Of a stretch of 53,981 nt of DNA, positions 1 through 17,298 are shown one piece after another. Within the stretch, counting starts at the first letter, position 1; every line of letters starts with the position of its first letter. The notes beneath the pieces were generated by a model that searched no databases, was not told where the DNA came from, and was given only the letters and a program-made list of their open reading frames with translations. Source of the stretch: an uncultured bacterium (GTDB lineage: Bacteria; Bacillota; Clostridia; Lachnospirales; Lachnospiraceae); the NCBI GenBank assembly GCA_947651225.1, contig CANSYK010000018.1:1-53981 (forward strand). The letters are read 5' to 3'. A program made the translations under genes and the position numbers.

Positions 1-52
1 GAGTACCTTTGGCAGTATAATATTACTTGATTATTAATGCAATGCTGTACTA

Positions 53-754: not shown

Positions 755-918
755 TGATAAAATATATTGTCCGTTCTGATGTGTTGGAAAAATTTAGAAG
801 AAAGTTTTGTTGATATGCTGCGCATGCCTGGCACAATTACTCAGACAAAAAAGGCGCTGCCTTTGTCAGCCTGAATGGAGAAAGCTAAAAAAACTGTATG
901 CAGCCTGCATACAGTCCT
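755..918. other. Spacer between recombinase and invertible segment
   Basis: No convincing reading frame is present. It holds a GC-rich imperfect hairpin at about 843-868 and the perfect palindrome at 893-915 listed separately. The hairpin could end recombinase transcription, but it lacks a T-run on the plus strand. Confidence 0.4.
893..915. repeat. Perfect 23-nt palindrome beside left inverted repeat
   Basis: Two 11-base arms (ACTGTATGCAG and its exact complement) meet around a single C. It lies 3 nt outside the left 22-bp inverted repeat. It may be a protein-binding site or a hairpin that isolates the recombinase from the switch. Its role is unknown. Confidence 0.6.
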
Positions 919-940
919 TACAACATAATGATTATTATGT
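919..940 (+). repeat. Left inverted repeat of invertible segment (IRL)
   Basis: 22 bases that occur again as an exact reverse complement at 1270-1291. The repeat is itself nearly symmetric (ACATAAT, four bases, ATTATGT), as expected for a site bound by two tyrosine recombinase protomers. Confidence 0.75.
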
Positions 941-1222
941 GCTGCTCTACCAGGTTTCAGCAAGGGCTAAAATTGCAGACTAAGCCGGTAAAACTGCCTG
1001 CCAAAAACCAATAACAGTACCCCAAAATAATTATGTCATACTGCCAGAAAAGCCCCGATTAATGGGTGTTTCAGCCAACTTACCAGATACAATATGTACG
1101 AGATTCCATGATGTTTCTAAAAGACAGCATTCGGAAACCCAAAGCTTTCCTTACAGACAGGACAGAACTTTCATGGCTGTCCCCTGTAAAAACACCAGAT
1201 AATGAAAAATCAGAAAAAATCC

Positions 1223-1251
1223 TTGAAATACAAAGAATTCCGTGTTACAAT
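1223..1251 (+). promoter_or_regulatory. Promoter inside the invertible segment
   Basis: TTGAAA at 1223-1228, a 17-nt spacer, and TACAAT at 1246-1251. Transcription would begin near 1258, cross the right inverted repeat and run through a leader of about 265 nt into the helicase gene. Confidence 0.65.
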
Positions 1252-1269
1252 GGCATATGTATTTGGATA

Positions 1270-1291
1270 ACATAATAATCATTATGTTGTA
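1270..1291 (-). repeat. Right inverted repeat of invertible segment (IRR)
   Basis: Exact reverse complement of 919-940 over 22 bases. It sits between the outward promoter and the first downstream gene. Confidence 0.75.
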
Positions 1292-1523
1292 TGGGGTACT
1301 GTTGTCGGCTGTGTTGGCATGCGTAGCCGGGAGGCAGCCCCGCATTCAGCGGAAATATGAAGACAGCAGTAGATTGTGATGGATAATTTTGTTTTCTTAT
1401 ATATTCATACGTGTTACTTGCCGCAAGGTGTTTTCCGCAATTTTTTGGCAGTAAGGAACGGAACTGTCCAGAGATAGGCTAATTAAGAGGCGTAAGCTGT
1501 TTTGGCGGTTCCTGAGAAAGCTG
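1292..1523 (+). other. Untranslated leader of the island transcript
   Basis: There is no gene in this stretch. It would be the 5-prime leader of RNA started at the invertible promoter. Short GC-rich complementary segments (ATGCG and CGCAT near 1319-1345) could pair. I see no clear terminator, and no NusG/LoaP-type antiterminator gene is present in the window. Confidence 0.4.
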
Positions 1524-4304
1524 GTGGTCAGATTGGTAGACGAAGATATGCGGCATGATTTTTTGCCATTGCCGTTTGAATCGGAAATGCAAAAAGCTAC
1601 GCATGACATAAGGATGTCCTTGGAGTTATTTCCACATAATCGGCATGCTTATGATGTGATCTGTCATTTATTAAAGAGGAAAGGAAAGGCTGCAGTCATT
1701 CATCCCACAGGAACCGGAAAGTCTTTTATTGCGTTTCGCCTTGTATTTGACAATCTACAGGCAAGGATTCTCTGGCTGTCTCCAAGCGAATATATTTTTC
1801 GGACACAGGTAGAAAGCCTAAGAAAAAGCCTATTTGGAGTGGAAAATCGGAGAAAAAATTTGGCAGATTTAGAAATAGAAAATCAGAGGAAAAGTCTGCC
1901 TGATTTGGAAAAGGAAAAAGAGAGAACTTTAAGGCGGATGGCAGAAGGGCTGGAATTTATGACATATTCCCGGCTGATGCTTTGCGCAGATTCTTTTTCT
2001 GAAAAAAAACTGGATTATATTATCCTGGATGAGTTTCACCGCTGTGGGGCTTCGGAGTGGGGGAAGGGAGTACGGAAGCTTCTTTTAGAACACCCAGAAG
2101 CAAAGATTTTAGGGCTTTCTGCTACAAATGTGCGCTACCTTGACGGACAAAGGGATATGGCAGAGGAACTTTTTGCGGGCTGTGTTGCCTCAAAAATGAC
2201 ACTTGGGGAGGCTGTGGCAGAAAAGATACTGCCAGCGCCATGCTATGTGATTTCCATGTATTCTTATCAAAAGGAGCTGGAGCATATAGCGGAGCGTGTG
2301 AAGAACGGCAGGGATTCCTCTTTAAGGCGGCAGAATGAAGAACTGCTGGAAAAGCTGCGCAGAAGTTTAGAACAGGCAGATGGTCTGGAAACGGTTTTTG
2401 GAAGGCATATCAAAAACAGGCATGGGAAATATATTGTTTTTTGTTCTGGGAAAAGTCATATGGAAGAAATGATTTCCCATGTAGGGGAATGGTTCAGCCT
2501 TGTGGATAGAAAACCACATATTTACAGGGTTTCCTTTGATGATTCCGGTGCAGGAAAGCAGTTTGAAGCGTTCCAGAAAGATGAAGGCAGTCATTTAAAG
2601 CTTCTATTCTGCATTGATATGTTAAACGAAGGCGTGCATGTGGAAGGCGTAGACGGGGTAATCCTTTTGCGTCCGACAGTTTCGCCAACGCTTTATTTAC
2701 AGCAGATTGGCCGTGGGCTTGTTGCAGGTAGGGGGAGGGAAGAACAACCTGTTATATTTGATGTTGTCAATAACTTTGAAAGTCTTTCTTTGGTTGATTC
2801 CCTTCAAGGGGAGTTTGAACAGGCTCTGGCTTTTCTACAGTATACAGGGGAAGAAAAGACAGAATGCCAGAATACCTTTCAGGTGATTGATGAACTGTTA
2901 GACTGCCGGAAACTTTTTCGTACCATCTGCCAGAATCTTTCTTCTCCGTGGGATGTGTATTACCAGGAGGCAGAAGCTTTCTATAAAAAGGAAGGCCATC
3001 TTGAGGTGAAGAAACGGTATGTCACGGAAAGTGGTTTGAGCCTTGGCTCATGGATTCTGACGCAGAGAAGAGTACGTGCAGGAACTGTGGCTGGGAATTT
3101 AAGTGAGGAACAGATAAAAAGGCTGGATGCCATTGGAATGCGCTGGAAAGACAAAAGGACAGAGAAGCTTGAAAAAGGGCTGGCAAAACTAGAACAGTTT
3201 GTGTCAGAAAATGGCCATGGAGATGTCAATTTACAGTATGTAACAGAAGATGGGTTTCCGCTTGGGAAATGGCTCTGTAATATGCGTTCTAAGTATAGAA
3301 AGGGCAATTTGGAAGAGGAAGCGGTCGAGAGTCTGGAAAAGGCAGGCATAGTCTGGGATGTTGGGAAATATCGTTGGGAGATATATTACAAGGCAGCAGA
3401 GGAGTATAAAAACTCTTTTGGTGATTTGGAGATTCCATGCAGCTATGTGACAGAAGATGGGAAGAAGCTTGGTGTATGGCTGAATAACCAGAAAAGCAGT
3501 TATAGGAAAAAATATCATTTGGTTTCTGGCACTGTCAGAGAGACGGAATATACAGACCAGTGCAGGCATTCAAAAGAAATAGGGCATGGTTTTGCGGAGA
3601 AGCACAGGCTGGCAGAAGAAAATAGTTTTACAAAGGAGCAAGTTCAAAAATTAGAAGCTCTTGGCATCCGCTGGGAGGAGAAGTCAGAAAGCAACTTTGA
3701 AAGGAAATACCAGATTGCCAGAGAATATTACAAAGAGCATGGAAATTTAGAAATGCCATCCACTTTTGTGTATAAAGGGGAAAACCTTGGAAAGTGGCTG
3801 AATGAACTCAGGCTTGCCAGAAAGAATACAGGCTCGCAGAATCTGACCAAAGAAAAAGTACAGAAGCTTGACCAGATTGGCATGGTCTGGGAAAAGAAGG
3901 ATTCATGGGAGTATCGTTGCAGGCTTGCAAAAGAGTATTTCAAAAAACATGGGAATCTGGAGATTTCGCAGCAGTATGTAACAGAGGATGGCATCTGGCT
4001 TGGAAAGTGGCTGTACATACAAAGAACACATTATAGAAAGGGTGTTCTTGAGGATTGGAAAAAAGAAGAACTGGATAAACTTGGGATGTGCTGGGAATCT
4101 TTCACAGAGTCTGCTTTTGAAAAAGGCTGTAAGGCTTTGGCGGAATATTTTTCTGACAATCCGTCAAAAGAAGTGATAAAGACGATTATTATGCCGGATG
4201 GCTACCGTCTGGGTGAGTGGGTTTACCGCCAAAAGAGGAAGAAAAAGGCAGGAAAACTGACAAAAGAGCAGGAGGAACGGCTGGCAGTTCTTGGCGTGGA
4301 GTGA
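1524..4304 (+). CDS. Large SF2 DNA/RNA helicase with six C-terminal HA repeats
   Basis: A superfamily 2 helicase of 926 residues. Walker A is HPTGTGKS (about 60-67), the Walker B box is DEFH (169-172), motif III is SAT (199-201) and motif VI is QQIGRGL (393-399). From about residue 478 to the end come six diverged helicase-associated (HA, PF03457-type) repeats of about 65 residues. Each has a GHLEV or GNLE-like centre, LG-x-W-L, and an ending like LxxLGIxW; these probably bind nucleic acid. The GTG start has only a weak ribosome site. ATG at 1548 or 1614 is also possible, and the Firmicute relatives I recall begin near the 1614 Met. It is the first gene after the invertible promoter and has no obvious link to polysaccharide synthesis. 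Its role is unknown; a defence or mobile-element function is possible. Confidence 0.85.
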   Translation: MVRLVDEDMRHDFLPLPFESEMQKATHDIRMSLELFPHNRHAYDVICHLLKRKGKAAVIHPTGTGKSFIAFRLVFDNLQARILWLSPSEYIFRTQVESLRKSLFGVENRRKNLADLEIENQRKSLPDLEKEKERTLRRMAEGLEFMTYSRLMLCADSFSEKKLDYIILDEFHRCGASEWGKGVRKLLLEHPEAKILGLSATNVRYLDGQRDMAEELFAGCVASKMTLGEAVAEKILPAPCYVISMYSYQKELEHIAERVKNGRDSSLRRQNEELLEKLRRSLEQADGLETVFGRHIKNRHGKYIVFCSGKSHMEEMISHVGEWFSLVDRKPHIYRVSFDDSGAGKQFEAFQKDEGSHLKLLFCIDMLNEGVHVEGVDGVILLRPTVSPTLYLQQIGRGLVAGRGREEQPVIFDVVNNFESLSLVDSLQGEFEQALAFLQYTGEEKTECQNTFQVIDELLDCRKLFRTICQNLSSPWDVYYQEAEAFYKKEGHLEVKKRYVTESGLSLGSWILTQRRVRAGTVAGNLSEEQIKRLDAIGMRWKDKRTEKLEKGLAKLEQFVSENGHGDVNLQYVTEDGFPLGKWLCNMRSKYRKGNLEEEAVESLEKAGIVWDVGKYRWEIYYKAAEEYKNSFGDLEIPCSYVTEDGKKLGVWLNNQKSSYRKKYHLVSGTVRETEYTDQCRHSKEIGHGFAEKHRLAEENSFTKEQVQKLEALGIRWEEKSESNFERKYQIAREYYKEHGNLEMPSTFVYKGENLGKWLNELRLARKNTGSQNLTKEKVQKLDQIGMVWEKKDSWEYRCRLAKEYFKKHGNLEISQQYVTEDGIWLGKWLYIQRTHYRKGVLEDWKKEELDKLGMCWESFTESAFEKGCKALAEYFSDNPSKEVIKTIIMPDGYRLGEWVYRQKRKKKAGKLTKEQEERLAVLGVE

Positions 4305-4427
4305 TGGTTCTGTGAAACTTGGATTATATTTGAAACTCAGGCGGGCATAACTTAGATGAAATTCTGCATTCAATTCATTTTAATCTGGGAGATACAGGTT
4401 ATTGAAGCAGGGGAAAGAAGGCTGAAA

Positions 4428-4664
4428 ATGGGATCTGACAAGGGCAGGACGAAACCACAGCATTCTGCTGGAAAGGAACAATGTATTTTATGTGGAAGGC
4501 TGACAGAAATGGCAAAAAAACGGCCGATTTCCAAGCGGGAGCATTACATAGAAGGCGCTGGACAGCTCTGTAGAAAATGTTATCAGGAACTATATGTGCC
4601 AAAGCATAATGCAAATGTGGTGCAGCTTGCCAGTCAGAACATATCAGATAAGTGGTTTTCGTAA
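4428..4664 (+). CDS. Small zinc-ribbon protein of unknown function
   Basis: A 78-residue basic protein with two Cys-x2-Cys knuckles (CILC near residue 21 and CRKC near 51) that could hold one zinc ion. The ATG at 4428 follows an AGAAGG ribosome site; the frame is open further upstream (to 4356) without a better start. It lies between the helicase and the initiating sugar transferase on the same strand. I cannot name a family. The knuckles suggest nucleic-acid or protein binding. Confidence 0.6.
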   Translation: MGSDKGRTKPQHSAGKEQCILCGRLTEMAKKRPISKREHYIEGAGQLCRKCYQELYVPKHNANVVQLASQNISDKWFS

Positions 4665-4717
4665 TTCTTAAATACATTTTGAGGACAGGATACAGTTCCT
4701 AAGCAGGGAGGAAAAAG

Positions 4718-6271
4718 ATGGAAGGGATAAAGCACGATGTCACACTGCGTCTGGTCAAGGTAGCAGATGCAGTTTTGATTACTGTCCCTTTTGCTGTGGT
4801 ATGGCTCTTTTATTATGCAGAAAGGACATGGGCGCCCTTTTATCTGAAAGGGAATTGGGCAGTTATAGGATTATTTCTTTTCCTGTATGCAATGTTTGGG
4901 AAAGTATACGATGCTTTTTTGGTCTCTATGAACCAGATGTTTGAATCGGTATATAGCCAGTCATTGGCGGCATTATTTTCTGATTCTGTCATGTATATTG
5001 TGAGCTGGCTTCTGACAAAACACCTGCCAAATCCTGTCCCTTTGTTTTTTGTATTTTTCTGTCAGGTTGTTCTTGCCGCTCTTTGGTTTAAGCTTGCAAA
5101 TAAGTGGTATTACAGCATATTTGTGCCGAAAAAGTCGGCGGTTGTTTATGATATGCGCAGTGGGATGGAAAGGCTTGTGGAGGAATATGGGCTGGCAAAG
5201 AAATTTGATATCTGTCTTACAGAGGGTGTGGAAGAGTGTCTTGCAGATATCCATATGTTGGATGGGATGGACGCTGTATTTTTAAGTGGAATCCATAGCC
5301 ATGACAGAAATATTATTCTGAAATACTGTGTAGAAAAGGGGATTGAAGTTTATGTGATTCCAAGGATTGGTGATACGATTATGAGTGGTGCAAAACAGAT
5401 GCACATGTTCCATCTGCCCATTTTACGGACAGGCAGATATAATCCGTCCCCAGTCTATCTGGTGGCAAAAAGGCTGGTTGATATAGCGGTTGCACTTGCT
5501 GCCGTTATAATACTGTTTCCAGTGTGGCTTATAACGGCTATTGCAGTAAAAGCGGAGGATAGTGGAGATATCTTTTACCGACAGCGCCGCCTGACAAAAG
5601 ATGGAAAAGCATTTGATGTATTAAAATTCCGCAGTATGAAAATGAATGCGGAAGGGGATGGAATTGCAAGGCTTTCTTCGGGTGAAAATGATGAACGCTT
5701 AACAAAGGTAGGGCGTGTTATCCGCAAAGTCCGTCTGGACGAGCTTCCACAACTGCTTTGCATTTTAAAAGGAGATATGAGCCTTGTAGGACCAAGACCA
5801 GAACGACCGGAGATTGCCAGACAGTATGAAGAGGAAATGCCGGAATTTCGTTTGCGCCTGCAGGCAAAAGCAGGGTTAACAGGTTATGCACAGGTTTATG
5901 GGAAGTATAATACGACACCCTATGATAAGCTGCAGATGGATTTGATGTATATTGCGCATCCGAGTATGGTGGAGGATTTTAGGATTATGCTTGCCACAAT
6001 GAAGATTTTGTTTTTGGCTGAGAGTACAGAAGGGGTGGAAGAAGGAGCTGTCACAGCAATAGAAGTGAAAGGTTTAGAAAAACAGGGTGATTTAGAAGAT
6101 ACCATTTATCAGGCTGAAAGTGAATATGCGGCAATGCTGCCTGTTAAAACAGCAATGGAAATAGAGAATGTTAATTGTAGCCTACATATTATGAAGAGTG
6201 AAAAATATGAAAATAATGATGAATTCAGGAACAGTCCTGCCGTTTTTTCAGATGAGGAGAAGACTTTGTGA
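4718..6271 (+). CDS. Polyprenyl-phosphate sugar phosphotransferase (initiating enzyme)
   Basis: Membrane enzyme that moves a sugar phosphate from a nucleotide sugar to undecaprenyl phosphate, the first step of repeat-unit assembly. The 517-residue protein has about four N-terminal membrane helices, a soluble middle domain and a fifth helix near residue 255-275. The C-terminal bacterial sugar transferase domain contains KFRSM (303-307), the catalytic Asp-Glu of DELPQL (341-342) and GDMSLVGPRPERPE (352-365), as in WbaP and CpsE. A GGAGG site precedes the ATG. The C-terminal 100 or so residues are acidic and unlike the family, and the last 65 nt overlap the next gene, so the normal stop may have been lost. 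Which sugar is transferred cannot be read from sequence. Confidence 0.92.
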   Translation: MEGIKHDVTLRLVKVADAVLITVPFAVVWLFYYAERTWAPFYLKGNWAVIGLFLFLYAMFGKVYDAFLVSMNQMFESVYSQSLAALFSDSVMYIVSWLLTKHLPNPVPLFFVFFCQVVLAALWFKLANKWYYSIFVPKKSAVVYDMRSGMERLVEEYGLAKKFDICLTEGVEECLADIHMLDGMDAVFLSGIHSHDRNIILKYCVEKGIEVYVIPRIGDTIMSGAKQMHMFHLPILRTGRYNPSPVYLVAKRLVDIAVALAAVIILFPVWLITAIAVKAEDSGDIFYRQRRLTKDGKAFDVLKFRSMKMNAEGDGIARLSSGENDERLTKVGRVIRKVRLDELPQLLCILKGDMSLVGPRPERPEIARQYEEEMPEFRLRLQAKAGLTGYAQVYGKYNTTPYDKLQMDLMYIAHPSMVEDFRIMLATMKILFLAESTEGVEEGAVTAIEVKGLEKQGDLEDTIYQAESEYAAMLPVKTAMEIENVNCSLHIMKSEKYENNDEFRNSPAVFSDEEKTL

Positions 6272-7340
6272 TAACCTGATAGAAAAAGGATATGAAATTA
6301 CGGTTAGTGGTTATACAGAAGTTAGTAAAGACTTATTGAAGCAGTATAAGGCGGATTATGTATATATTCCATTATCGCGTGCTGGAATAAATCCTGTTCA
6401 GGATTTAAAGGTATTAAGAGCATACTATAAAGAAATGAAAAGGGAAAAGTATGAAATAGTTCATAGCTATACGGCGAAACCTAATATTTATGGTTCAATA
6501 GCAGCAAAATATGCTGGCATCAGAAGGATATATCCAACTGTCAATGGTCTTGGATATGCTTTTACAGATGTTGACACAGGAAAGTTGAAAGCAAAGTTTG
6601 TAAGGTTTATGATTTCTCTTTTATATAAATGGGGTTTCTCGTGTGCCACCAAAGTATTTTTTCAAAACAAAGATGATGCAAGGGAATTGATCCGGAGAAA
6701 AATTATAGATAAGGGTAAATGTGTCCTTATTTCTGGCTCAGGAATTGAACTGGATGCATATCCTTATAGTGAATGTTCTGTTACTCCAATGGTGTTTTTG
6801 ATTGCAACCCGTCTTTTAGTTACAAAGGGTGTCAGGGAATTTTGTGAAGCTGCAAGAATTGTCAAAAGAAAATATTCTGAAGCAGTTTTTCAGCTAGCAG
6901 GTGCATTAGATGATAACCCAGACAGTATTAGCCAGAAGGAGCTTAATTTTTATGTAAAAGAAGGGATTATTCAATATCTCGGTGTAGTCAGGGATATGCC
7001 GTCTGCTTTAAAAAAATGTTCTGTATTTGTCCTTCCATCCTTTTATCGGGAGGGAATACCGCATGTTATTTTGGAGGCTATGAGTGTTGGCAGGGCTGTT
7101 ATAACAACAGACTCCCCGGGGTGTAAAGAAACAGTCAGGGGAGCTGATGAGATGGGAAAAGGGAAAAATGGTTTTCTTATTCCTGCAAAAGACAGTCAGA
7201 TATTGGCTGAAAAGATGATATGGATGATTGAGCATACAGACAGGGTAAAAGAAATGGGGGAGGAAAGCCGTAGATATGCGGAGGAGAGATTTGACGTTGA
7301 AATGGTAAATAAAGTTATGTTGGAAACAATGGGAATTTAA
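6207..7340 (+). CDS. GT4 family glycosyltransferase
   Basis: A retaining GT-B glycosyltransferase that probably adds the second or a later sugar on the cytoplasmic face. The C-terminal half has the GT4 pattern LPSFYREGIPHVILEAMSVG, which holds the nucleotide-sugar E-x7-E motif, followed by TDSPGCKE. The N-terminal acceptor domain has HSYTAKPNIYGSIAA, typical of capsule enzymes related to WcaA or PglA. I chose the ATG at 6207; a GTG at 6198 is also in frame. It overlaps the upstream sugar transferase by 65 nt. DNA from here to about 17 kb is clearly more AT-rich than the flanks. Confidence 0.85.
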   Translation: MKIMMNSGTVLPFFQMRRRLCDNLIEKGYEITVSGYTEVSKDLLKQYKADYVYIPLSRAGINPVQDLKVLRAYYKEMKREKYEIVHSYTAKPNIYGSIAAKYAGIRRIYPTVNGLGYAFTDVDTGKLKAKFVRFMISLLYKWGFSCATKVFFQNKDDARELIRRKIIDKGKCVLISGSGIELDAYPYSECSVTPMVFLIATRLLVTKGVREFCEAARIVKRKYSEAVFQLAGALDDNPDSISQKELNFYVKEGIIQYLGVVRDMPSALKKCSVFVLPSFYREGIPHVILEAMSVGRAVITTDSPGCKETVRGADEMGKGKNGFLIPAKDSQILAEKMIWMIEHTDRVKEMGEESRRYAEERFDVEMVNKVMLETMGI

Positions 7341-7406
7341 CTGTACATATTTTTACAGAATATGTGAAAATATATGGGACATTTCCTCAAAAGAGAAGGG
7401 AAAAGC

Positions 7407-8327
7407 ATGAAAAAAGTGAATATCCTTTTATCTGCATTTAATGGAGAAAAGTATATTGAAGAACAAATAAGAAGTATTTTGGCACAAAAGGATGTAAAAA
7501 TTCATTTGATAATAAGGGATGATGGTTCAACTGACAATACGGTAAAAATAATTAGGTCTATTCAAAAGGAAAATGGAAATAGAATTGATTTAATAGAGGG
7601 AGAAAATGTTGGATATCGCAAAAGCTTTTATTTGTTATTATGTGCTCGTGACAAAAATTCGGATTATTATGCCTTTTCAGATCAGGATGATGTATGGATG
7701 TCCGAAAAGTTGATTGTTGCAATAAAAAAGCTTGAATGTGAAAATGAAAAATGGTTATATTCTTCAGCCTTAATATTGACTGATAAGAACTTACGAAAAA
7801 TAAGTTTTAGAAGCCAGAAAAATGTCCGGCAAACTTTGAAATCTTTTTTTATTAGGACAAGACTCTCTGGATGCACTATGGTATTTAAACCAGAACTGGC
7901 AGAGATAGCAGGCAACATACAAATTTCAAGTGTAGAAAATGTATCCCTTCCAGATCACGATGCGTTTTTATGTATGATTTCATTGGCGTCTGGTAAAAAA
8001 ATTATTATTGATGATCATGCATACATATTTCATAGGAGACTGGAAAATTCCGTTACAGCAGGAAGAGGGATTAAAAAAAGGGTATTAGTAGAATATAACC
8101 GTATTTTTAAACGGAAAAATAGTTATACTAATGCGGCGTCTATGCTTTTAAAGAAAAAGGATGAAATACAAATCAATGCTGATAATATTTCTTTCCTAAA
8201 AAATGTTATGTGGAGTAATAAAAATAGAAAGGCAAGAGTATGTTTATTTTTTGACAAGGAATTTTCCAGTGGCATTTTTGGAGCAGATGCATTGATAAGA
8301 ATCAAGATCATGCACCGAATATACTAA
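7407..8327 (+). CDS. GT2 family glycosyltransferase (rhamnosyltransferase-like)
   Basis: An inverting GT-A glycosyltransferase of 306 residues. The N-terminus has the nucleotide-sugar fold with NILLSAFNGEKYIEEQIRSI, RDDGSTDNT and the DxD-type motif FSDQDDVW, a combination often seen in rhamnosyl or other deoxysugar transferases of polysaccharide loci. The ATG at 7407 follows an AGAAGGG site; an upstream in-frame start at 7374 has none. The acceptor is unknown. Confidence 0.85.
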   Translation: MKKVNILLSAFNGEKYIEEQIRSILAQKDVKIHLIIRDDGSTDNTVKIIRSIQKENGNRIDLIEGENVGYRKSFYLLLCARDKNSDYYAFSDQDDVWMSEKLIVAIKKLECENEKWLYSSALILTDKNLRKISFRSQKNVRQTLKSFFIRTRLSGCTMVFKPELAEIAGNIQISSVENVSLPDHDAFLCMISLASGKKIIIDDHAYIFHRRLENSVTAGRGIKKRVLVEYNRIFKRKNSYTNAASMLLKKKDEIQINADNISFLKNVMWSNKNRKARVCLFFDKEFSSGIFGADALIRIKIMHRIY

Positions 8328-8352
8328 ATATAAGAAAGATGGGAAAAAACAG

Positions 8353-9468
8353 TTGAAAGTTTTACAGGTAATCGGAGGATTAGGATTTGGCGGAATTCAG
8401 TCTATGGTACTGTCTATATTTAGAAATATAGACAAAAATAAAATAATGTTTGATTTCGTATGTTTTCCTGGACAGGAGAAGTATGAGATGTATGATGAAA
8501 TCGTATCTTTAGGGGCAACCGTGTATGTTTGTCCGCAATACGATATGAAGAATCAAATGGGATTTTTGAGGTGGTGGACAGATTTTTTTAATAAACACAA
8601 AGAATACAAGATAGTTCATGGACATTTACGTGGCTCTGCATTTATTTATGTTCCCATAGCAAAGAGAAATGGGTGTATAACAATTGTGCATAGCCATAGC
8701 ACTTCCAACGGTAATGGGATGCAGGCTGCCATAAAAAATTTGTTACAATTACCAATACGGTTTCAGGCTGATTATTTGTTTGCCTGCTCTGATGAAGCAG
8801 GAAAGTGGCTTTTTGGAAAACACGTAATAGATAAGGAAAATTTTAAAATAGTAAAAAATGGAATTAATGGGAAACGCTTTTCTTTCAAAAGGGAAGTAAG
8901 AAAACAAATTCGGGAAGAAATGAAATTGGGTAACAGCTTTGTATTGGGGCATGTAGGCAGGTTCATTAAAGCAAAAAATCAACTTTTTATTCTTGATGTG
9001 TTTAATGAATTAAAAATAAGAGGGGTGGATTGTAAATTGCTTTTTGTTGGAGGGGGAGATTTAGAAAATGAAGCGAAAGTAAAAACCCAGAAGTATGGAT
9101 TGGAAAAAGATGTGGTTTTCATTGGAAGAAAGGGCAATACGGAAGATTACTATCAAGCAATGGATGTATTTGTATTTCCTTCTTTATGGGAGGGGTTGGG
9201 GATGGTTGCGGTAGAAGCTCAAGCCAGTGGTTTGCCTTGTTTTGTTTCGGAAAGGATTCCCTCAATTGTGGATATAGGTGCTGGTCTTTTTTTTCAGTTA
9301 AACTTGGATGCTGGGGTTTCACAATGGGCAGATAGGATATTGGAAAAAAGAGACTATATCAGGAAAGAACAAATACAATTCCTTAGAAGAGCCGGATATG
9401 ATGCAATTACTATTGCACAAGATATGGAGAAATTTTATCTGAATCTGGATAAAGATGTATACTTATAA
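8353..9468 (+). CDS. GT4 family glycosyltransferase (EpsF-like)
   Basis: A 371-residue GT-B enzyme. The N-terminus (KVLQVIGGLGFGGIQSMVL) has the glycine-rich acceptor loop. HGHLRGSAFIY and IVHSHS follow in the middle. The donor-binding half contains GHVGRF.KAKNQ and FPSLWEGLGMVAVEAQASGLP, which carries the E-x7-E motif. This is the EpsF or CapM-like branch common in Firmicute exopolysaccharide clusters. The start codon is TTG with a poor ribosome site, so it may be weakly translated. A T8 run lies near 9286-9293. Confidence 0.85.
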   Translation: MKVLQVIGGLGFGGIQSMVLSIFRNIDKNKIMFDFVCFPGQEKYEMYDEIVSLGATVYVCPQYDMKNQMGFLRWWTDFFNKHKEYKIVHGHLRGSAFIYVPIAKRNGCITIVHSHSTSNGNGMQAAIKNLLQLPIRFQADYLFACSDEAGKWLFGKHVIDKENFKIVKNGINGKRFSFKREVRKQIREEMKLGNSFVLGHVGRFIKAKNQLFILDVFNELKIRGVDCKLLFVGGGDLENEAKVKTQKYGLEKDVVFIGRKGNTEDYYQAMDVFVFPSLWEGLGMVAVEAQASGLPCFVSERIPSIVDIGAGLFFQLNLDAGVSQWADRILEKRDYIRKEQIQFLRRAGYDAITIAQDMEKFYLNLDKDVYL

Positions 9469-9594
9469 GATTGGACAGCACATCTGAATATATGAAAATT
9501 ATGATTTGAATGCGAAAGAGGATTATCGTTAAACAAATGTGGGATAAGTTAAATAACGGTATAGTAACTATTATGAAAAGACAGGACATATTTT

Positions 9595-10866
9595 ATGAAA
9601 AATTTAATAATGATTATGATGGAAACGTTAATTATTTTAGCATATTGCTATAGTAATATATTAGGTATGGTTTTTATGTTAGTGGTGGTCATATGTAAAT
9701 TGTTTTTTTTAAAAGAGAGAAATATGATTAAATTTTTTGAATTAATGATTATGGCCTTGCCAATGGCATATATTGGGATTGCAGGCATAAAAATGCACCA
9801 ATTGTTTTCTTGGTATAATGTGTTTTTGGTGTGCTTTTTCATTGCAGTTTTATATAATTACTTATGGAAAGTTTCAATACATCATATTGCAGCTGTACAA
9901 TTAATTGTAATCTTCTTTTTACTCTTTTTGAATTTGCCCTATTCTGACGATGTTAAGAAGACATTTGTAGAGATGGCTCAAATTTTTATCATGCTTATTC
10001 CAATTGTAATGTTCCATTCTGTAAAAAAAAGTTTGCGGATAGGAAAAGCAGAGATTCAGGAACTGATTTCCATGTACGTGAATGTATGTGTTTCTACAGC
10101 AATAGCAATGTTGGTTCAATATGTGTTGTATTTTTTTGTACATATACAGATTGGCATCATAGATACTTTTGGCAGTGGGAGAGTATGCTGTCAATGTTTA
10201 TTTAAAGGCGCAAGCATTCTGCCGATTTTTATGGGGATTGGAATGATTATTCTATTTTTAGATATGTTAGATACGCATATGACAATATCATGTATTTTAG
10301 AAATGGTGGTTATTTTTTTAGCAGTTGTGTTGAACAGTTCGCGAACGGCACTTTTTATGATAATTGTTGTGCTTGCATTTGTATGCATGAGACAGATGTT
10401 AAAGAGACCTGGTATTAAGCCGCTATTTATAACATTAGTTGGTCTTTTTGCGTCTATAGGAGGAATTCAATATATTATATCACTAAGAAGTGGATTAAAT
10501 GGTTTTTTGGATGCAAATGGACGGGTTGAAACGTGGATTAATAGCATAAATGTCTGGCTGGCAGATATCAAAAATTTTTTAATAGGTGGGGGGCTTGCGG
10601 ATGGAAGTATAAAATCACATAATTTTCCCATTCAAACACTAGCACAATGTGGGATTTTAGTAAGCTTAATTGTATTTATCATGATATTTGTATATTTATG
10701 GAACAATCGCAAAAACAGATATAAGTATGTTATATGGTTTGTCCTGCTGTCTGGCTTTTTAGTTACAGATTTTTATGCAAATGCATTCACAACTGTTATT
10801 TTTATTTTAGTAGATTTGTATGGAACATCTGAGCTTGATGCAACAAGGAAGGAATTATTGATATGA
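9595..10866 (+). CDS. Wzy-like O-antigen/capsule polymerase
   Basis: A 423-residue membrane protein, almost entirely hydrophobic, with about 10 to 12 transmembrane helices. The only sizeable polar stretches are RERNMIKFF near the N-terminus and the loop GRVETWINSINVW, which resembles the catalytic periplasmic loop of O-antigen polymerases. NSSRTALF in a late helix also fits the family. It would join lipid-linked repeat units outside the membrane. Sequence conservation in this family is poor, so the call rests on topology and position. Its stop overlaps the next start by 4 nt (ATGA), showing translational coupling. Confidence 0.8.
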   Translation: MKNLIMIMMETLIILAYCYSNILGMVFMLVVVICKLFFLKERNMIKFFELMIMALPMAYIGIAGIKMHQLFSWYNVFLVCFFIAVLYNYLWKVSIHHIAAVQLIVIFFLLFLNLPYSDDVKKTFVEMAQIFIMLIPIVMFHSVKKSLRIGKAEIQELISMYVNVCVSTAIAMLVQYVLYFFVHIQIGIIDTFGSGRVCCQCLFKGASILPIFMGIGMIILFLDMLDTHMTISCILEMVVIFLAVVLNSSRTALFMIIVVLAFVCMRQMLKRPGIKPLFITLVGLFASIGGIQYIISLRSGLNGFLDANGRVETWINSINVWLADIKNFLIGGGLADGSIKSHNFPIQTLAQCGILVSLIVFIMIFVYLWNNRKNRYKYVIWFVLLSGFLVTDFYANAFTTVIFILVDLYGTSELDATRKELLI

Positions 10867-11813
10867 AAAAAACGAAGGAATTAGTTTCAGTGATTGTGCC
10901 GGTTTTTAATGTGGCATGTTATTTGGGAAAATGTGTTGAGTCAATTGTAAAGCAAACATATAGGAATTTAGAAATTATTTTGATAAATGATGGTTCTACG
11001 GATGAATCAGGGGATTTATGTGATATGTGGGGGAAGAAAGATTCAAGAATCAGGGTTATTCATAAATCGAATGGCGGGTTGGGAGATGCGAGAAACACAG
11101 GTATAGAAGCGGCAACCGGAGAGTATATACTTTACGTGGATAGTGATGATTGGCTTGAATTAAATTTCTGTGAAGTAATGTTATACAGAATACAAAAGGG
11201 AGGATGTGATGCATGTGTATGTGGGTACAGAGAGGTTTGTGATGATGGAAAGGTTATGAAAATAAAAAGTGAGGAAAATAGGATTTATTTGGGACAGGAG
11301 CTTTTAAATGACATATTGGAAGAAAAGGTTTGTTTTTCTTATTCTGTATGGAAGTTTATGTATAAACGAAAAAACATATCGTTTATAAAATTTGATGTGG
11401 GTGTTTATTTTGAAGATGTTACTTTTTTAACGAAATTTTTATTGCAAGATTTACGTGTGTCAGTGGAGTCAAAGGTTTTATATAATTATCGTGTGAATGA
11501 AAAAAGCATAACAAGGCAGACGTTAACAAATAAGCATGTAAAAGACTATATCGGAGCTGTATATAGTCAGTTTTGTATGCTTCAGAAAGCTGGATGTTTT
11601 AAAAAATCAGGAGGATATTACTGGAGAGCGTTGTTGTATTTGAAATATCATGTATATGTGGAGGGCAGGGACAAGTTCATGCTACAGGCTATTAAAAATG
11701 CATTATGTATGGTTCCGTTAAAGCGCAAGGAATTAGATATTAAAACCAGATTTAAAATAGATGCTTTGTTATATGCTATGCCGTTTTGTGTTTTATATAA
11801 GTCATTGAGGTAG
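10863..11813 (+). CDS. GT2 family glycosyltransferase (EpsJ-like)
   Basis: A 316-residue GT-A enzyme with the standard N-terminal half: VSVIVPVFNVACYLGKCVES, ILINDGSTDESG, GGLGDARNTGIEAA and YVDSDDWLE (metal-binding DxD). The C-terminal part has FEDVTFLTKFLL, typical of EpsJ-type beta-glycosyltransferases. It is translationally coupled to the polymerase and is followed 3 nt later by the GT11 gene, so these are clearly one operon. The sugar added is unknown. Confidence 0.88.
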   Translation: MKKTKELVSVIVPVFNVACYLGKCVESIVKQTYRNLEIILINDGSTDESGDLCDMWGKKDSRIRVIHKSNGGLGDARNTGIEAATGEYILYVDSDDWLELNFCEVMLYRIQKGGCDACVCGYREVCDDGKVMKIKSEENRIYLGQELLNDILEEKVCFSYSVWKFMYKRKNISFIKFDVGVYFEDVTFLTKFLLQDLRVSVESKVLYNYRVNEKSITRQTLTNKHVKDYIGAVYSQFCMLQKAGCFKKSGGYYWRALLYLKYHVYVEGRDKFMLQAIKNALCMVPLKRKELDIKTRFKIDALLYAMPFCVLYKSLR

Positions 11814-11816
11814 AAA

Positions 11817-12710
11817 ATGAAGAAAAAAAGTGTGATTATAAATCAGTATCGTGGTGGTTTGGGAAATCAGATGTTTCAGTATGCATTTGGTTTAAATTTG
11901 GAAAAGCAGGGAAAGAAAGTCTTTGCCGATACATCATGGTATCATGAAAAAAATTGCTTAAGAGAAGGGTTTCGCTTAGGGGAGGTATTTCCTTTTGTTC
12001 AGTTAAATGATGTTGAGAAAGATGTTAGTATATTTTATCGGTATTCTATTCGCAGAGGGATTGGCACAAAAATAATAAACAAGATTTTTCCATTTACTAG
12101 AAAAATTTATTTGGAAAAGAGGGAATTTTTATATGACATAAAGGCATTACAGACATCAAAAAGGGCAGTATCCGGTTATTGGCAGTGTTATAGATATGTT
12201 CATAATGTTTCGCAGGAATTGAGAAAGCAGTTTACTTTTGCACAATCTTTGCCGCATGAAATGCAGGATTTGTTAGCTGGAATAAAAAACAGTTCTTCTG
12301 TATTCCTTCATATTCGTGGAGGAGATTATATAAAACAGCCACAAGTTTATAAGCTGTATGGAAATATATGTACAAAAGATTATTATAAAAAGGCCATTGC
12401 TATGATGAAAATGAAATTGCACAGTCCTTTGTTTTTTGTATTTACAAATGATAGGCCATATGCAAAATCTATTATTACTGAGACGGATGACATATATTTT
12501 ATATCGGATTTTATAAGTAGACCTTATGAAGGTTGGTTAGATTTAATGATGATGTCAAAATGTAAGCATGCTATTATTGCTAATAGTTCATTTAGTTGGT
12601 GGGGAGCATGGTTGATAGAAAATAGAGATAAAATAGTAATAGCTCCTGAAAAATGGTTAAATAGGAAGCAGGATTTTGATATTTGTGAGCCGGATTGGAT
12701 TAAAATGTAA
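11817..12710 (+). CDS. Alpha-1,2-fucosyltransferase (GT11)
   Basis: Transfers L-fucose from GDP-fucose in alpha-1,2 linkage to a growing repeat unit. The 297-residue protein has the family motifs in order: GGLGNQMFQYAFG near residue 15, HIRGGDY (the GDP-binding H-x-R-x-G-D motif, with Gly where Arg is commonest) near 164, FVFTNDRPYAK, and the C-terminal NSSFSWWGAWL. The GDP-fucose pathway is encoded 4 to 8 kb downstream, which supports the donor. It begins 3 nt after the GT2 stop. Confidence 0.92.
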   Translation: MKKKSVIINQYRGGLGNQMFQYAFGLNLEKQGKKVFADTSWYHEKNCLREGFRLGEVFPFVQLNDVEKDVSIFYRYSIRRGIGTKIINKIFPFTRKIYLEKREFLYDIKALQTSKRAVSGYWQCYRYVHNVSQELRKQFTFAQSLPHEMQDLLAGIKNSSSVFLHIRGGDYIKQPQVYKLYGNICTKDYYKKAIAMMKMKLHSPLFFVFTNDRPYAKSIITETDDIYFISDFISRPYEGWLDLMMMSKCKHAIIANSSFSWWGAWLIENRDKIVIAPEKWLNRKQDFDICEPDWIKM

Positions 12711-12768
12711 ATTAAAAGAAAATGATGATATAGGGCTTGCGGAAAATGAATTTTAAGGGGGATACAAT

Positions 12769-13809
12769 ATGCTTAATTCAGCGAAAGAAAAGATTATAGA
12801 AAATAGTAATATGTATTTTATGATAAGTTTGTTTCGGAATTTTCGAAAAAAAGATTTTCAGAATCTGGTGCGTAATTTTGTACCATTACAGAATATTGAG
12901 AAAACGGATTATCCCAAAGCTTATGCAGAGGATGGAAAAGAGATAGAGTGGTTTTATTTGTTAGATAAATCCTGTGCGCATACACCTTATGCATTTTCAG
13001 CATGTAGAGTTCCCAAATATATTATATGGGACAGATATAATAGAAAACTTTCACGTCATGTATATACATATAATAATGTGTTTAATGTGATTGGCCGTCC
13101 CCAAAAGAAGTTTGCAATATTTCTTGAAGGTTGTGAAATTGTTCCACGAGTTTATGACCATTTGTTAAAAAATATTATATATTTAGAAGAATTTGATGCA
13201 GTATTTACAAATCAGGAAATATTATTGGACTCATTAAGTAATTCCTATTTTGTACCAAGTTGTTCTCCTTGGTTTGGAACAGAAGCAGGTGGGGGTGAAG
13301 CAGATGAAAATGGTTATAAGAGGAAAACAAAGAATATTTCTATTGTTTCATCTGATAAGGAGATGTGCAGTCTTCATATTTTGAGAAAAAATCTTGCATT
13401 ACAATATGATAAATTTTCCGGGGGGGGGGTAGATTGTTTTGGGACTTTTACTGATAAGGGAGGATATGTACCGTGTTTCAAATATTTGCAAGATTACAGG
13501 TTTCATATTGCAGTTGAAAATCAAATTACAAATGGGTATTTTACTGAAAAAATTACGAATTGTTTTTTGTCAATGACTGTTCCAATATATATTGGTGCAC
13601 CGGATATAGGCAAATATTTTAATGTAGACGGTATTATACAGGTTGAAGAAGCTAACATGGATGCAGTGAATTTTGCAGTAGAGAATTATTGTAGTGAGGA
13701 AAATTATGAAAAACGTATTTCTGCAATCATAGATAATTATAACAGAGTACAGGAATATCTTGTGGTTGAGGATTATTTATATAATCATTATCTTGATATA
13801 CTGAAATAG
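12769..13809 (+). CDS. Alpha-1,3-fucosyltransferase (GT10), phase-variable by a G10 tract
   Basis: A GT10 fucosyltransferase of 346 residues. The diagnostic donor-binding block FHIAVENQITNGYFTEK starts near residue 245 and is followed by PIYIGAPDI. It would add fucose from GDP-fucose in alpha-1,3 (or 1,4) linkage. A run of ten G (13420-13429) codes for Gly218-220 and keeps the frame open. Losing one G makes the next codon TAG, and gaining one leads to TGA 12 codons later. Either change removes the donor-binding block. Helicobacter pylori fucosyltransferases switch by homopolymer slippage in the same way. The gene has a good RBS (AAGGGGG) and its own 58-nt gap, so it may be read from the common transcript only. 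Confidence 0.9.
   Translation: MLNSAKEKIIENSNMYFMISLFRNFRKKDFQNLVRNFVPLQNIEKTDYPKAYAEDGKEIEWFYLLDKSCAHTPYAFSACRVPKYIIWDRYNRKLSRHVYTYNNVFNVIGRPQKKFAIFLEGCEIVPRVYDHLLKNIIYLEEFDAVFTNQEILLDSLSNSYFVPSCSPWFGTEAGGGEADENGYKRKTKNISIVSSDKEMCSLHILRKNLALQYDKFSGGGVDCFGTFTDKGGYVPCFKYLQDYRFHIAVENQITNGYFTEKITNCFLSMTVPIYIGAPDIGKYFNVDGIIQVEEANMDAVNFAVENYCSEENYEKRISAIIDNYNRVQEYLVVEDYLYNHYLDILK
13420..13429 (+). repeat. Poly-G tract (G10) in the GT10 fucosyltransferase
   Basis: Ten consecutive G in a gene that is otherwise AT-rich. The present length is in frame (ON). Lengths of 9 or 11 stop translation at or just after the tract. Confidence 0.9.
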
Positions 13810-13858
13810 TTGTTAAGAAAAAAGGGCATACAGATATGGGATAAGAGGAGGAATAGGA

Positions 13859-14563
13859 ATGTTTCAAAGGCTAAAAGAATTTATTAAAAGAAATAAAATT
13901 TTATATAGTTTTCTTTTAAAATGTTATCGTTGCATATGTTATATCGGGGGGGGGCAAAAGTATAGAAAGGTACAGGAATTTTTTCGAAAGCAAGGAAATG
14001 ATATGCTCAGAGAATCTTCTTTTTTAAATTCGGATTCAGTTGTGTTTGAGTTAGGTGGATATAAAGGGGACTGGGTAGGTGATATCTATGAAAAATATTT
14101 ATGTAATTGTTATGTTTTTGAACCAATAGAAGAATTTTGTGATGTTATTCGAATGAAATTTCAGGATGTGGAGAAAGTGCATATCTATAATATGGGAATT
14201 GGGGTAACTACATATGATTCCATAATAAACGTATCAGAAGATGGAAGTTCAGTTTATGATAAAAATGGAAACAGAAAAATTAAAATTAAGGCAATTAAGG
14301 AATTTCTGGAGGAAAACAGAATTGATAGGATAGATTTTATACAGATTAATATTGAAGGTGGAGAGTATGATATTTTGGAATGGCTTATTGAGAGTGGGGA
14401 TATTAAACAGATTAAAATTCTACAGATTCAGTTTCATGATAGGAAGGAAATCGATTCAAAGCGGAGAATGGAGGATATACAAATAAATTTAGAAAAAACT
14501 CATACATTGGAATGGGCATTCCGCCCTTATGTATGGGAGAGATGGATATCGAAAGAAATGTAG
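13859..14563 (+). CDS. FkbM-family methyltransferase, phase-variable by a G9 tract
   Basis: A SAM-dependent O-methyltransferase of 234 residues, probably capping or decorating a sugar hydroxyl. The SAM-binding region runs from VVFELGGYKGDWVGDI through YVFEPIEEF. The FkbM signature IDFIQINIEGGEYDIL follows near residue 155-170. The first 45 residues are basic. Nine consecutive G at 13946-13954 encode Gly30-32. With 10 G a TAG follows 3 codons later, and with 8 G a TAA follows after about 25 codons, so the whole catalytic domain is lost in either case. It follows the GT10 gene directly and precedes the dehydratase-like gene. Confidence 0.88.
   Translation: MFQRLKEFIKRNKILYSFLLKCYRCICYIGGGQKYRKVQEFFRKQGNDMLRESSFLNSDSVVFELGGYKGDWVGDIYEKYLCNCYVFEPIEEFCDVIRMKFQDVEKVHIYNMGIGVTTYDSIINVSEDGSSVYDKNGNRKIKIKAIKEFLEENRIDRIDFIQINIEGGEYDILEWLIESGDIKQIKILQIQFHDRKEIDSKRRMEDIQINLEKTHTLEWAFRPYVWERWISKEM
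13946..13954 (+). repeat. Poly-G tract (G9) in the FkbM methyltransferase
   Basis: Nine consecutive G early in the gene, in frame at the present length. Plus or minus one base gives early termination. Confidence 0.9.
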
Positions 14564-14658
14564 AATTTAACTTGAACTGTTTGAACAGGAAGAACAGATT
14601 TTATTATCAGGAAGTGTGTTTAATAGAAAAGGCGGGTGTAAAGGTTGGAGGGATTTGC

Positions 14659-15855
14659 ATGAAAAAAATAGGAGTAGGTTATGCCTCGGTATCGGATTTG
14701 GAAAAGAAGTATGTACTAGAGGCACTGGAAAATGAAAGATTGTCACAAGGAAAATTTGTATCTAAATTTGAGAAAAAATTTTCTTATATGCATGGACAGA
14801 TTTATGGTGTTATGTGTAATAGCGGAACAAGTGCTCTGCACCTATCATTACTTGCGTTAAAAGAGTACTATGGCTGGGATGAAAATACAGAGATTCTTGT
14901 CCCTGCAATTACATTTATTGCAACTTCAAATGCAGTATTGCATGCGGGAATGTGTCCGGTTTTTGTTGATGTGGATAGTAAGTCATATAATATGGATTCA
15001 AATGAAATAGAAAAGCATATTAGCAATAGGACAAAATGTATAATTCCAGTACACTGTTTTGGTATGCCGTGTGAAATGGATAAAATTGTAGAAATAGCAG
15101 AAAGATATCATTTAACTATTTTAGAGGACTGTGCAGAGGCTCATTTTGCAAAAATAAATGGAAGGACGATTGGTAGTTTTAGCGAAATTTCTGCTTTTAG
15201 TACATATGTTGCACACACACTGACAACAGGTGTTGGTGGAATTATGTGTACCAGTAATTTGGAAATAGTAGAAATTTTGAGGTCTTTAGTAGCTCATGGC
15301 AGAGCCTGCACGTGTGAAAGGTGTATTGCGTCAGATGCGAATCAGGTTTGCAGAAAGCGAATGGAAACGGATATAGATAGGCGGTTTATGTTTATCAGGC
15401 TGGGGTATAGTTGTAGGGTAGGAGAACTTGAAGGTGCTCTTGGGCTTGCTCAGTTAGAGCGTTTGGATGAAATTATGAATGCACGTCATAATAATGCAGA
15501 ATATTTGATTAGAGGATTGGAAGCGGTCGAAGATTATCTGCAATTACCCAGACATCCAGAGTATATTGAACATACATATATGATGTTTCCATTGGTACTT
15601 ACGGAGGATTCTAATGTAGAAAGGGACGAGTTTGCAAGATATCTTGAGGGCAATAATATTGAAACAAGACCAATGCTTCCTTTGTTAAATCAGCCAGTGT
15701 ATAAAGAGATTTTTGGAAATATTGAAGATAAGTATCCAGTTGCTAAATATATCAATAGTCATGGGGTTTATATAGGTTGCCATCATGGTCTTACAAGACA
15801 GGAACTTGATTATCAGATAAAGATTATACTTGGATTTTTTAAAAGTATAAGATAG
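14659..15855 (+). CDS. DegT/DnrJ/EryC1-fold, PMP-type sugar dehydratase-like enzyme (His in place of Lys)
   Basis: A fold-type I PLP/PMP enzyme of 398 residues. The family landmarks are present: CNSGTSALHLSLLAL, PAITFIATSNAVL, PVHCFGMPCEMD, LEDCAEAH and the C-terminal HTYMMFPLV. At the position of the Schiff-base lysine the sequence is YVAHTLTTGVGG, with His instead of Lys. This is as in ColD (GDP-4-keto-6-deoxymannose 3-dehydratase) and E1/RfbH, which dehydrate rather than transaminate. A group of four Cys (ACTCERC, then Cys eight residues later) lies where E1 enzymes hold a [2Fe-2S] cluster, but the spacing differs. With GMD nearby, a 3,6-dideoxy sugar such as colitose is possible. Start chosen at the ATG after GGAGGG. 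Aminotransferase function is unlikely. Confidence 0.8.
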   Translation: MKKIGVGYASVSDLEKKYVLEALENERLSQGKFVSKFEKKFSYMHGQIYGVMCNSGTSALHLSLLALKEYYGWDENTEILVPAITFIATSNAVLHAGMCPVFVDVDSKSYNMDSNEIEKHISNRTKCIIPVHCFGMPCEMDKIVEIAERYHLTILEDCAEAHFAKINGRTIGSFSEISAFSTYVAHTLTTGVGGIMCTSNLEIVEILRSLVAHGRACTCERCIASDANQVCRKRMETDIDRRFMFIRLGYSCRVGELEGALGLAQLERLDEIMNARHNNAEYLIRGLEAVEDYLQLPRHPEYIEHTYMMFPLVLTEDSNVERDEFARYLEGNNIETRPMLPLLNQPVYKEIFGNIEDKYPVAKYINSHGVYIGCHHGLTRQELDYQIKIILGFFKSIR

Positions 15856-15912
15856 GTTTTAGAATAATATGGGTTTAAAACATATTGATTAGATGTGGGA
15901 AAAGAGGCAAAA

Positions 15913-16866: not shown

Positions 16867-16972
16867 GATAATTTGGTATACAAAAGGCAAGAAGCGAGAT
16901 GTTTAGAATAGCCGTGAATAGTATCCGTTGTTGACAAATTAAATATTATATTACCTTGACAATCAAATAGAC

Positions 16973-17001
16973 TTTACACTTTTTATTCAATTTGTTATGA
17001 T
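16973..17001 (+). promoter_or_regulatory. Promoter for the small ORF and gmd-manC-ABC part
   Basis: TTTACA at 16973-16978, a 17-nt spacer and TATGAT at 16996-17001, preceded by the TG of an extended -10. It would give the 3-prime genes of the island transcription independent of the inverton. Confidence 0.6.
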
Positions 17002-17032
17002 TAGGCTGTAACAATCAGAATACAGAAAATAA

Positions 17033-17061
17033 GGAACTGTAAATTAATTATTTATAGTTCC
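17033..17061 (+). promoter_or_regulatory. 12-bp hairpin in the leader of the small ORF
   Basis: GGAACTGTAAAT pairs with ATTTATAGTTCC around a 5-nt loop, with one G-U pair. There is no T-run after it, so it is probably a leader structure or RNA stabiliser rather than a terminator. Confidence 0.5.
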
Positions 17062-17082
17062 TAACGGAAAGCAGGTGGTTAT

Positions 17083-17274
17083 ATGCCAAGTTCAGCAGAT
17101 ATTATTAGAGATTCCATAAATGAATTTTCCAGGCTTCAAAACTGGATGCTGACAGCAAAATCAAATAATGATATGGATACTTATAATTCAATGTATGACA
17201 GGTATATTGAGTTAAAAGTTACATTAACAAGTTTAGGGGTAAACATTACAAAATTGGATAAAATCAACGAGTGA
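17083..17274 (+). CDS. Small hypothetical protein (63 aa)
   Basis: A soluble, probably helical protein of 63 residues, with no membrane segment or metal motif. An AGCAGGTGG-like site precedes the ATG. It has its own promoter upstream and a terminator-like hairpin downstream, so it may be a separate short transcript within the island. The N-terminal part (SSADIIRDSINEFSRLQNW) is amphipathic. I do not recognise the family. Confidence 0.6.
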   Translation: MPSSADIIRDSINEFSRLQNWMLTAKSNNDMDTYNSMYDRYIELKVTLTSLGVNITKLDKINE

Positions 17275-17298
17275 CCACAAAATAATGACAGTATAAAT

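Follow-up and report, generated by a model that had tools for sequence, protein, structure and literature searches.

Inverted repeats, promoter and recombinase

The DNA analysed here, called the window, was the entire contig C18 (CANSYK010000018.1; 53,981 nt) of an uncultured Lachnospiraceae bacterium, the draft genome of which comprised 4.38 Mb in 167 contigs. The window contained a surface-polysaccharide operon on the + strand, which was preceded by a promoter flanked by inverted repeats (an inverton) and carried a poly-G tract in each of two late genes. This collinear set of sequence features had been described in a first-pass annotation of the same DNA and was confirmed. The two inverted-repeat arms (916–940 and 1270–1294) were 25 nt long and 96% complementary, with a spacer of 329 nt. 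They formed the sole exact repeat pair of at least 16 nt with a spacer of 100–700 nt in positions 1–25000 of the window. When the whole draft genome was searched with the 25-mer arm at up to two mismatches, six matches were obtained, compared with none for the reversed-pattern control.

The invertible promoter TTGAAA-17-TACAAT (1223–1251, + strand) was located between the arms and was aimed at the operon in the assembled orientation, which is the ON orientation. It was among ten sites with a score of 10/12 in a scan of positions 700–17400, the nine others scoring equal to it, and was one of the two that carried a TG before the −10 element. The scan gave 74 promoter-like sites, with 64.6 expected by chance (standard deviation 9.9). 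Because this total was near chance, the promoter was supported by its position and conservation and not by the scan. A terminator-like hairpin (889–919) was positioned between the recombinase gene and the inverton. Its T tail was on the − strand, and the hairpin would therefore stop transcripts started in the OFF orientation. Of the eight recombinase-side arms examined, seven had such a hairpin next to them, and these seven could be aligned.

The tyrosine recombinase gene (53–754, + strand) was truncated at its 5′ end and encoded 233 residues. The product had a Phage_integrase catalytic domain (E 4.9e-25) and similarity to XerC, XerD, and XerA, as in XerC/D-type recombinases, with scores below the NCBIfam equivalog cut-offs; it was therefore not XerC or XerD proper. 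Aligned with six paralogs of greater length, the window protein lacked roughly 50 N-terminal residues. The gene was interrupted by a repeated element with terminal inverted repeats, an end of which occupied positions 1–53 (+ strand). Positions 1–53 were identical to positions 2–54 of contig C104, which diverged beyond this point, and other copies of the element were found on C21, C29, and C67. The element ends resembled ACTAGTACANCATTGCATTAAT, and the end in the window coincided with the truncation point of the recombinase. The copies on C29 and C67 were about 150–170 bp long and were similar to miniature inverted-repeat transposable elements. At the end of contig C77, the 5′ half of a recombinase gene (residues 1–49) gave way to an element end in the reverse sense, and C77 and C18 are presumably adjacent in the genome. 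Longer, apparently whole paralogs of the recombinase were encoded on C26, C50, and C158.

The first-pass annotation had proposed a recombinase-driven promoter switch. That proposal is weak for the window, since the adjacent recombinase gene was interrupted near codon 50, a truncation that the annotation had not noted. Inversion in the window would depend on a recombinase acting in trans, or the segment would be frozen ON.

The first gene of the operon (1524–4304, + strand) encoded a DEAD/ResIII helicase with six HA stretches. An UpxY-like antiterminator was looked for as the first gene, and this helicase with HA domains was found in its place. The closest named relatives of the helicase were from Roseburia, Lachnospiraceae, and Clostridia metagenome-assembled genomes (MAGs), which points to a clostridial host.

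Relatives were compared as one genome per species, with 28 genomes of the genus, and 299 genomes of the family for protein searches. A predicted leader hairpin (1305–1330, + strand; consensus CCGGCTGTGTTGGCATGCGCAGCCGG) with an invariant loop was conserved between the right arm and the helicase gene. It was present in all seven leaders available, where 60 of 60 pair cells were standard pairs, compared with 20–50% in sliding controls. The six sites besides that of the window were L024:35–60, L026:6098–6123 (− strand), L109:3276–3301, L110:17385–17410 (− strand), L119:68–93, and L036:84–109. Its exact 16-mer occurred only at these seven places in the genus genomes, with one further place at one mismatch, and the exact core was exclusive to helicase-led inverton operons. 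Covariation gave weak support, as one of ten pairs was changed on both sides and 174 of 500 shuffles were equally good. Among four single-sequence folds, that of the window itself was not unusual (z −1.15). An Rfam search of the leader gave nothing above threshold and one sub-threshold match at 890–991. The support for the predicted hairpin is its conservation and exclusivity.

Poly-G tracts in the GT10 and FkbM genes

The gene of a GT10 fucosyltransferase family protein (12769–13809, + strand; 346 residues) contained a G10 tract (13420–13429, + strand), which began at codon 218 and preceded the GT10 core. The following gene (13859–14563, + strand; 234 residues) encoded an FkbM-family methyltransferase (Methyltransf_21 in Pfam, TIGR01444 in NCBIfam) and contained a G9 tract (13946–13954, + strand) at codons 30–32, before the catalytic domain. 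These two tracts were the sole G or C runs of at least 7 in the 53,981 bases. The G runs of the + strand comprised 13 of length 5, 3 of length 6, none of length 7 or 8, one G9, and one G10, and the longest C run was 5. A first-order Markov model gave an expectation of 0.24 G runs of at least 9 per window. Among 25 genes counted, GGG made up 24% of the glycine codons, and 8 Gly-Gly-Gly sites were found, of which only the two tracts were written GGG GGG GGG.

Both open reading frames (ORFs) were open and in frame as assembled, with tract lengths of 10 and 9. When a tract was changed in silico by one or two bases, the GT10 protein was shortened from 346 to 220–228 residues and the FkbM protein from 234 to 34–56 residues, the FkbM domain being at residues 66–196. 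The two genes thus had sequence-level properties of poly-G contingency genes, namely a long homopolymer in the coding sequence and a product truncated by a change in its length. Residues 238–298 of the GT10 protein matched the solved alpha-1,3-fucosyltransferases 2nzw and 5zoi, and the tract seems to be located in a tolerant loop just before the conserved (V/I)D.FG motif. A search of the family genomes with the GT10 protein (E ≤1e-30) gave one match besides its own, with 38% identity, and the FkbM protein found no match other than itself in the genus genomes (E ≤1e-10).

G9+ tracts recurred in helicase-led operons. They were found in 6 of 10 such operons, two tracts each on C18 and C62 of the window's own genome and, in the related bacterium D16-51, one on C45, two on C89, five on C199, and two on C205. 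Helicase-led operons held 4 of the 10 G9+ tracts in the window's own genome and 10 of the 24 in D16-51 (P 2e-6 and 2e-11, respectively; 2 of 8 and P 0.001 for the own genome with C18 left out), these values being post hoc and based on estimated operon lengths of 46 kb and 110 kb, respectively.

The frames on both sides of the tracts were compared with those around G5–G6 runs as a control. A case was counted as clear when there was a long open frame on both sides that was clearly the best; this stricter rule was used because a simpler frame test miscalls tracts near the 5′ end of a gene as out of frame. The frames were out of register in 9 of 21 clear cases at G9+, compared with 47 of 333 at G5–G6 (Fisher p 0.002), and in 9 of 20 (p 0.001) when a duplicate (L184, in frame) was removed. 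All nine splits were in relatives, and three of them were in helicase-led operons (D16-51 C45 once and C199 twice). An acyltransferase gene of a genus genome was split around a G11 tract into pieces that matched positions 4–64 and 71–326 of the Acyl_transf_3 profile, with the first piece slightly below the Pfam cut-off. In the helicase-led operon of D16-51 C45, a UbiA gene was split at a G8 tract, and its pieces matched residues 4–108 and 120–301 of the UbiA protein of C62. The C62 gene was open and carried a G9 tract at another codon, which suggests an independent origin of the two tracts. A methyltransferase gene on C62 and on D16-51 C205 (73% identical) shared a G9 tract within an identical block. 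A single helicase-led operon in D16-51 C199:8000–27999 (L112) carried five G9–G10 tracts, and open frames were clearly split at two of these.

Recurrence of the layout in related loci

The inverton arm, the DEAD/HA helicase, the sugar genes, and a G tract were found together in the window and on D16-51 C45, C89, and C205. This recurrence supports the pairing of inverton and tracts described in the first-pass annotation. The 22-nt arm or near copies of it (up to three mismatches) occurred in 14 of the 28 genus genomes, including that of the window, and some of these are matches expected by chance at that tolerance. Close arm copies with a recombinase and the same promoter were found in the window's own genome and in D16-51. 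The arms of C26 and C158 were identical to the window arm over 22 nt, and a variant arm was common to C50 and C140 of the same genome. In the paralogous invertons, the same promoter was placed 17–18 nt inside an arm.

When 13 places with a close arm copy were scanned by script, the full promoter was found in six. It pointed into the operon in two of them (C18 and D16-51 C89) and back at the recombinase in four (C50 and D16-51 C45, C181, and C30), of which D16-51 C181 was not helicase-led. By eye, three further places had a partial promoter at a contig end, pointing back on C26 and C158 and forward on D16-51 C156. Two operon-side arms were without the promoter (C140 and D16-51 C205), and the orientation was undecidable at the remaining two (C149 and D16-51 C243). 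The two orientations were seen at different paralogous loci, not at one locus in two states.

Copies of the helicase were found on five contigs of the window's own genome (C18, C62, C140, C149, and C157), so that, as in Bacteroides, there appear to be several switchable polysaccharide loci per genome. C62 and C157 held only the end of the helicase, the C140 copy spanned two overlapping frames, and an inverton arm was present on three of the five contigs (C18, C140, and C149). The contigs C140, C149, and C157 were short and had no G8+ tract. In D16-51, which was not fully searched for the helicase, copies were on at least C45, C89, C156, C199, and C205. An inverton arm was on the contig in four of the six tract-bearing operons (C18, C45, C89, and C205), whereas the C62 and C199 contigs began inside the helicase gene and thus stopped short of any inverton. 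The Clostridia MAG loci L038 and L039 had a recombinase, an inverted-repeat pair, the helicase, and sugar genes in the same order with a diverged repeat, and loci L041 and L044 had a different repeat beside the helicase.

Taken together, the locus probably belongs to a family of paralogous operons for surface polysaccharides in which phase variation operates at two layers. In the first layer, the XerC/D-type tyrosine recombinase would invert the segment with 329 nt between the arms, so that transcription from the promoter would enter the operon in one orientation (ON, the assembled state) and run back into the terminator hairpin in the other (OFF). In the second layer, when the locus is ON, slippage in the poly-G tracts of the GT10 and FkbM genes would determine whether the full-length enzymes are made, and their state would alter the glycan. 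In the strain of the window, paralogous recombinases acting on matching repeats would have to operate the first layer in trans, or that layer would be frozen ON. The arms, promoter, tracts, reading frames, truncation, recurrence, and the two orientations among paralogs are evident from the sequence, whereas the action of the recombinase, slippage itself, a single transcript, and effects on the glycan are inferred from it.

It is possible, although not the reading we favour, that the first layer is dead in the window, with the recombinase broken by the element insertion, the promoter locked ON, and only the G tracts varying; the two-layer design would then hold for the sister loci and not for the window locus. 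The element end at positions 1–53, the loss of residues 1 to about 50, and the recombinase 5′ half on C77 are consistent with such an insertion, although C18 and C77 are separate contigs and their adjacency is itself deduced. On the other side, the apparently whole paralogs on C26, C50, and C158, together with the identity of the C26 and C158 arms over 22 nt, make action in trans plausible. It is very improbable that the G tracts are chance runs of glycine codons or assembly errors with no unusual variation. Both tracts are in frame in a draft assembly, and a Markov expectation of 0.24 is not vanishing, but the absence of runs of 7 or 8, the restriction of all-GGG codons to two of the eight Gly-Gly-Gly sites, the post hoc enrichment in helicase-led operons, and the excess of out-of-frame splits in relatives argue against this explanation.

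A further explanation, in which the inverton drives only the helicase or a short leading transcript and the sugar genes have promoters of their own, would leave the two layers unstacked; it appears quite improbable. Internal promoters may exist within the operon, as nine sites score equal to the invertible one, and the first large gap (512 nt, 16866–17379), which is downstream of both tracts and before gmd, holds a promoter-like TTTACA-17-TATGAT. However, the intergenic gaps from 1524 to 16866 were at most 126 nt (with the DegT gene started at 14659), promoter-like sites were near chance, terminator-like sites were at chance level as well (10, compared with 8.2 expected), and in L038 and L039, too, an inverted-repeat pair precedes the helicase and sugar genes. 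All operon genes were on the + strand, and the region from the helicase to the FkbM gene is likely cotranscribed as a single transcript.

Several observations weigh against a working two-layer switch. An intact cognate recombinase was looked for beside the window inverton, and only the 5′-truncated ORF was found. With one genome per species, none of the loci showed the two orientations, and none of the tracts showed more than one length. The recombinase-side arm of D16-51 C243 had no terminator hairpin, and the operon of D16-51 C156, one of five helicase-led operons in that genome, had no G run of 8 or more over 34 kb. The site in the 38% identical GT10 relative was shorter and had neither a glycine run nor a tract. 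G9+ tracts were also found outside helicase-led operons, in 14 of 24 cases in D16-51 and in 6 of 10 in the window's own genome (a response regulator gene, a lipoprotein gene, a phage-like region, an intergenic region, and two contig starts); tracts at contig starts (C113 and C132) may be artefacts, and tract lengths in draft assemblies may be off. The 21 clear cases of the split test were drawn from 77 distinct G9+ tracts, a subset of all such tracts in the 28 genomes, and the rule was noisy, with a background of 14%. The methyltransferase tract of C62 and D16-51 C205 was at the 3′ end of the gene, the tract at D16-51 C199:25454 was in no clear gene, and that at C205:24242 was in a uridine-kinase-type gene; none of these was a clear switch.

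Known systems, operon genes and neighbours

Poly-G or poly-C contingency genes, which are turned ON or OFF by the reading frame, are known from Campylobacter, Helicobacter, and the pili of Bifidobacterium breve. The GT10 and FkbM genes resemble them in having a simple repeat in a gene for a surface glycan or surface structure. As far as is known, the tracts of those organisms act alone, whereas in the window the operon that carries the tracts is itself behind an invertible promoter. Switches of the RecV type in Clostridioides difficile, which control flagellar and cyclic di-GMP genes, are similar in that a recombinase operates an invertible switch in a clostridium; to our knowledge, none of them controls a polysaccharide operon with slippage tracts. 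In Bacteroides, inversion is carried out by the serine invertase Mpi, and UpxY and UpxZ are encoded by the first genes. The window differs from B. fragilis in its tyrosine recombinase gene, which adjoins the inverton, and in the first gene of its operon, which encodes a DEAD/HA helicase.

In the available passages on B. fragilis, multiple capsule loci are switched via invertible promoters (PMC3090145, PMC12355684), and the genome analysed here is similar to those descriptions in having several polysaccharide operons behind promoters flanked by inverted repeats. At a B. fragilis locus apparently without an invertible promoter, the same passages describe a run of 4 C that carries a frameshift, for which slippage was proposed, and they contain no stacked layers (PMC3090145, PMC12355684). 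A clostridial inverton with a neighbouring tyrosine recombinase, as in the window, is also represented by inverton group 139 of Clostridia with tyrosine invertase group 35, and some orientation shifts were measured in culture, according to the available text of PMC11892184; the words "homopolymer" and "helicase" have no occurrence in its main text. The first-pass annotation had considered the pairing undescribed in Firmicutes, and this view held in the open-licence PMC full text, where the stacked arrangement was not found; most subscription journals and bioRxiv are outside the scope of that collection. Each layer alone is already known, and their stacking in one Firmicute operon is apparently new.

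If the two-layer reading is correct, a clostridial lineage has evolved a multi-capsule strategy like that of Bacteroides by means of other machinery, and the second switch stacked on the first would multiply the surface types per clone. This would bear on phage resistance, immune recognition, and strain persistence, in a lineage that, judging from its relatives, inhabits the gut. A broader reading is that Clostridia possess Bacteroides-like multi-capsule switching built from other parts, namely an invertible promoter with a tyrosine recombinase beside it, a dedicated DEAD/HA helicase encoded by the first gene, and a leader RNA hairpin specific to the locus family. The helicase and hairpin would then form an operon-specific device for readthrough or cross-silencing, as a counterpart of UpxY/UpxZ, and late-gene poly-G tracts would diversify the glycan of the ON locus. 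This combination is tentative, and we regard it as unlikely.

The remaining operon genes were all on the + strand. The helicase gene was followed by a small ORF without a Pfam or NCBIfam match (4356–4664), an initiating sugar transferase of the Bac_transf family (4718–6271), a group 1 glycosyltransferase (6198–7340), a family 2 glycosyltransferase (7374–8327), and another group 1 glycosyltransferase (8353–9468). A hydrophobic protein without a family match (9595–10866) is probably a Wzy-type polymerase, as judged by eye from its position and hydrophobicity. It was followed by a second family 2 glycosyltransferase (10863–11813) and, next to the GT10 gene, a GT11 fucosyltransferase family gene without a G run of 6 or more (11817–12710). 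Downstream of the FkbM gene were a DegT-family sugar aminotransferase (14659–15855; start set at 14659, with the mechanical ORF start at 14512), a GDP-L-fucose synthase-like protein (15895–16866; 469.5 bits, below the NCBIfam cut-off of 500), GDP-mannose 4,6-dehydratase (17379–18440; above the NCBIfam cut-off), and a mannose-1-phosphate guanylyltransferase type protein (18485–19798). The operon ended with an ABC transporter (19806–21617), which is a probable flippase (best NCBIfam match PglK, 336.8 bits, below the cut-off of 1000).

The bare, fucosylated, and methylated polymers listed in the first-pass annotation were guesswork: a bare polymer is not established because the GT11 gene without a tract adjoins the GT10 gene, and the GT10 enzyme may build the repeat unit itself. 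A population with no polysaccharide in the OFF state is not required either, given the helicase copies on five contigs of this genome.

The operon ended 89 nt upstream of an rpmJ ORF identified by eye, which was followed on the same strand by rpsM, rpsK, rpsD, rpoA, and rplQ (21617–25248). No terminator-like site was found in positions 21400–22300, between the operon and the ribosomal protein genes, and read-through could couple the capsule state to these genes. An L-fucose isomerase gene and an FGGY sugar kinase gene (29118–32276, − strand) were also located near the fucose-polymer locus.

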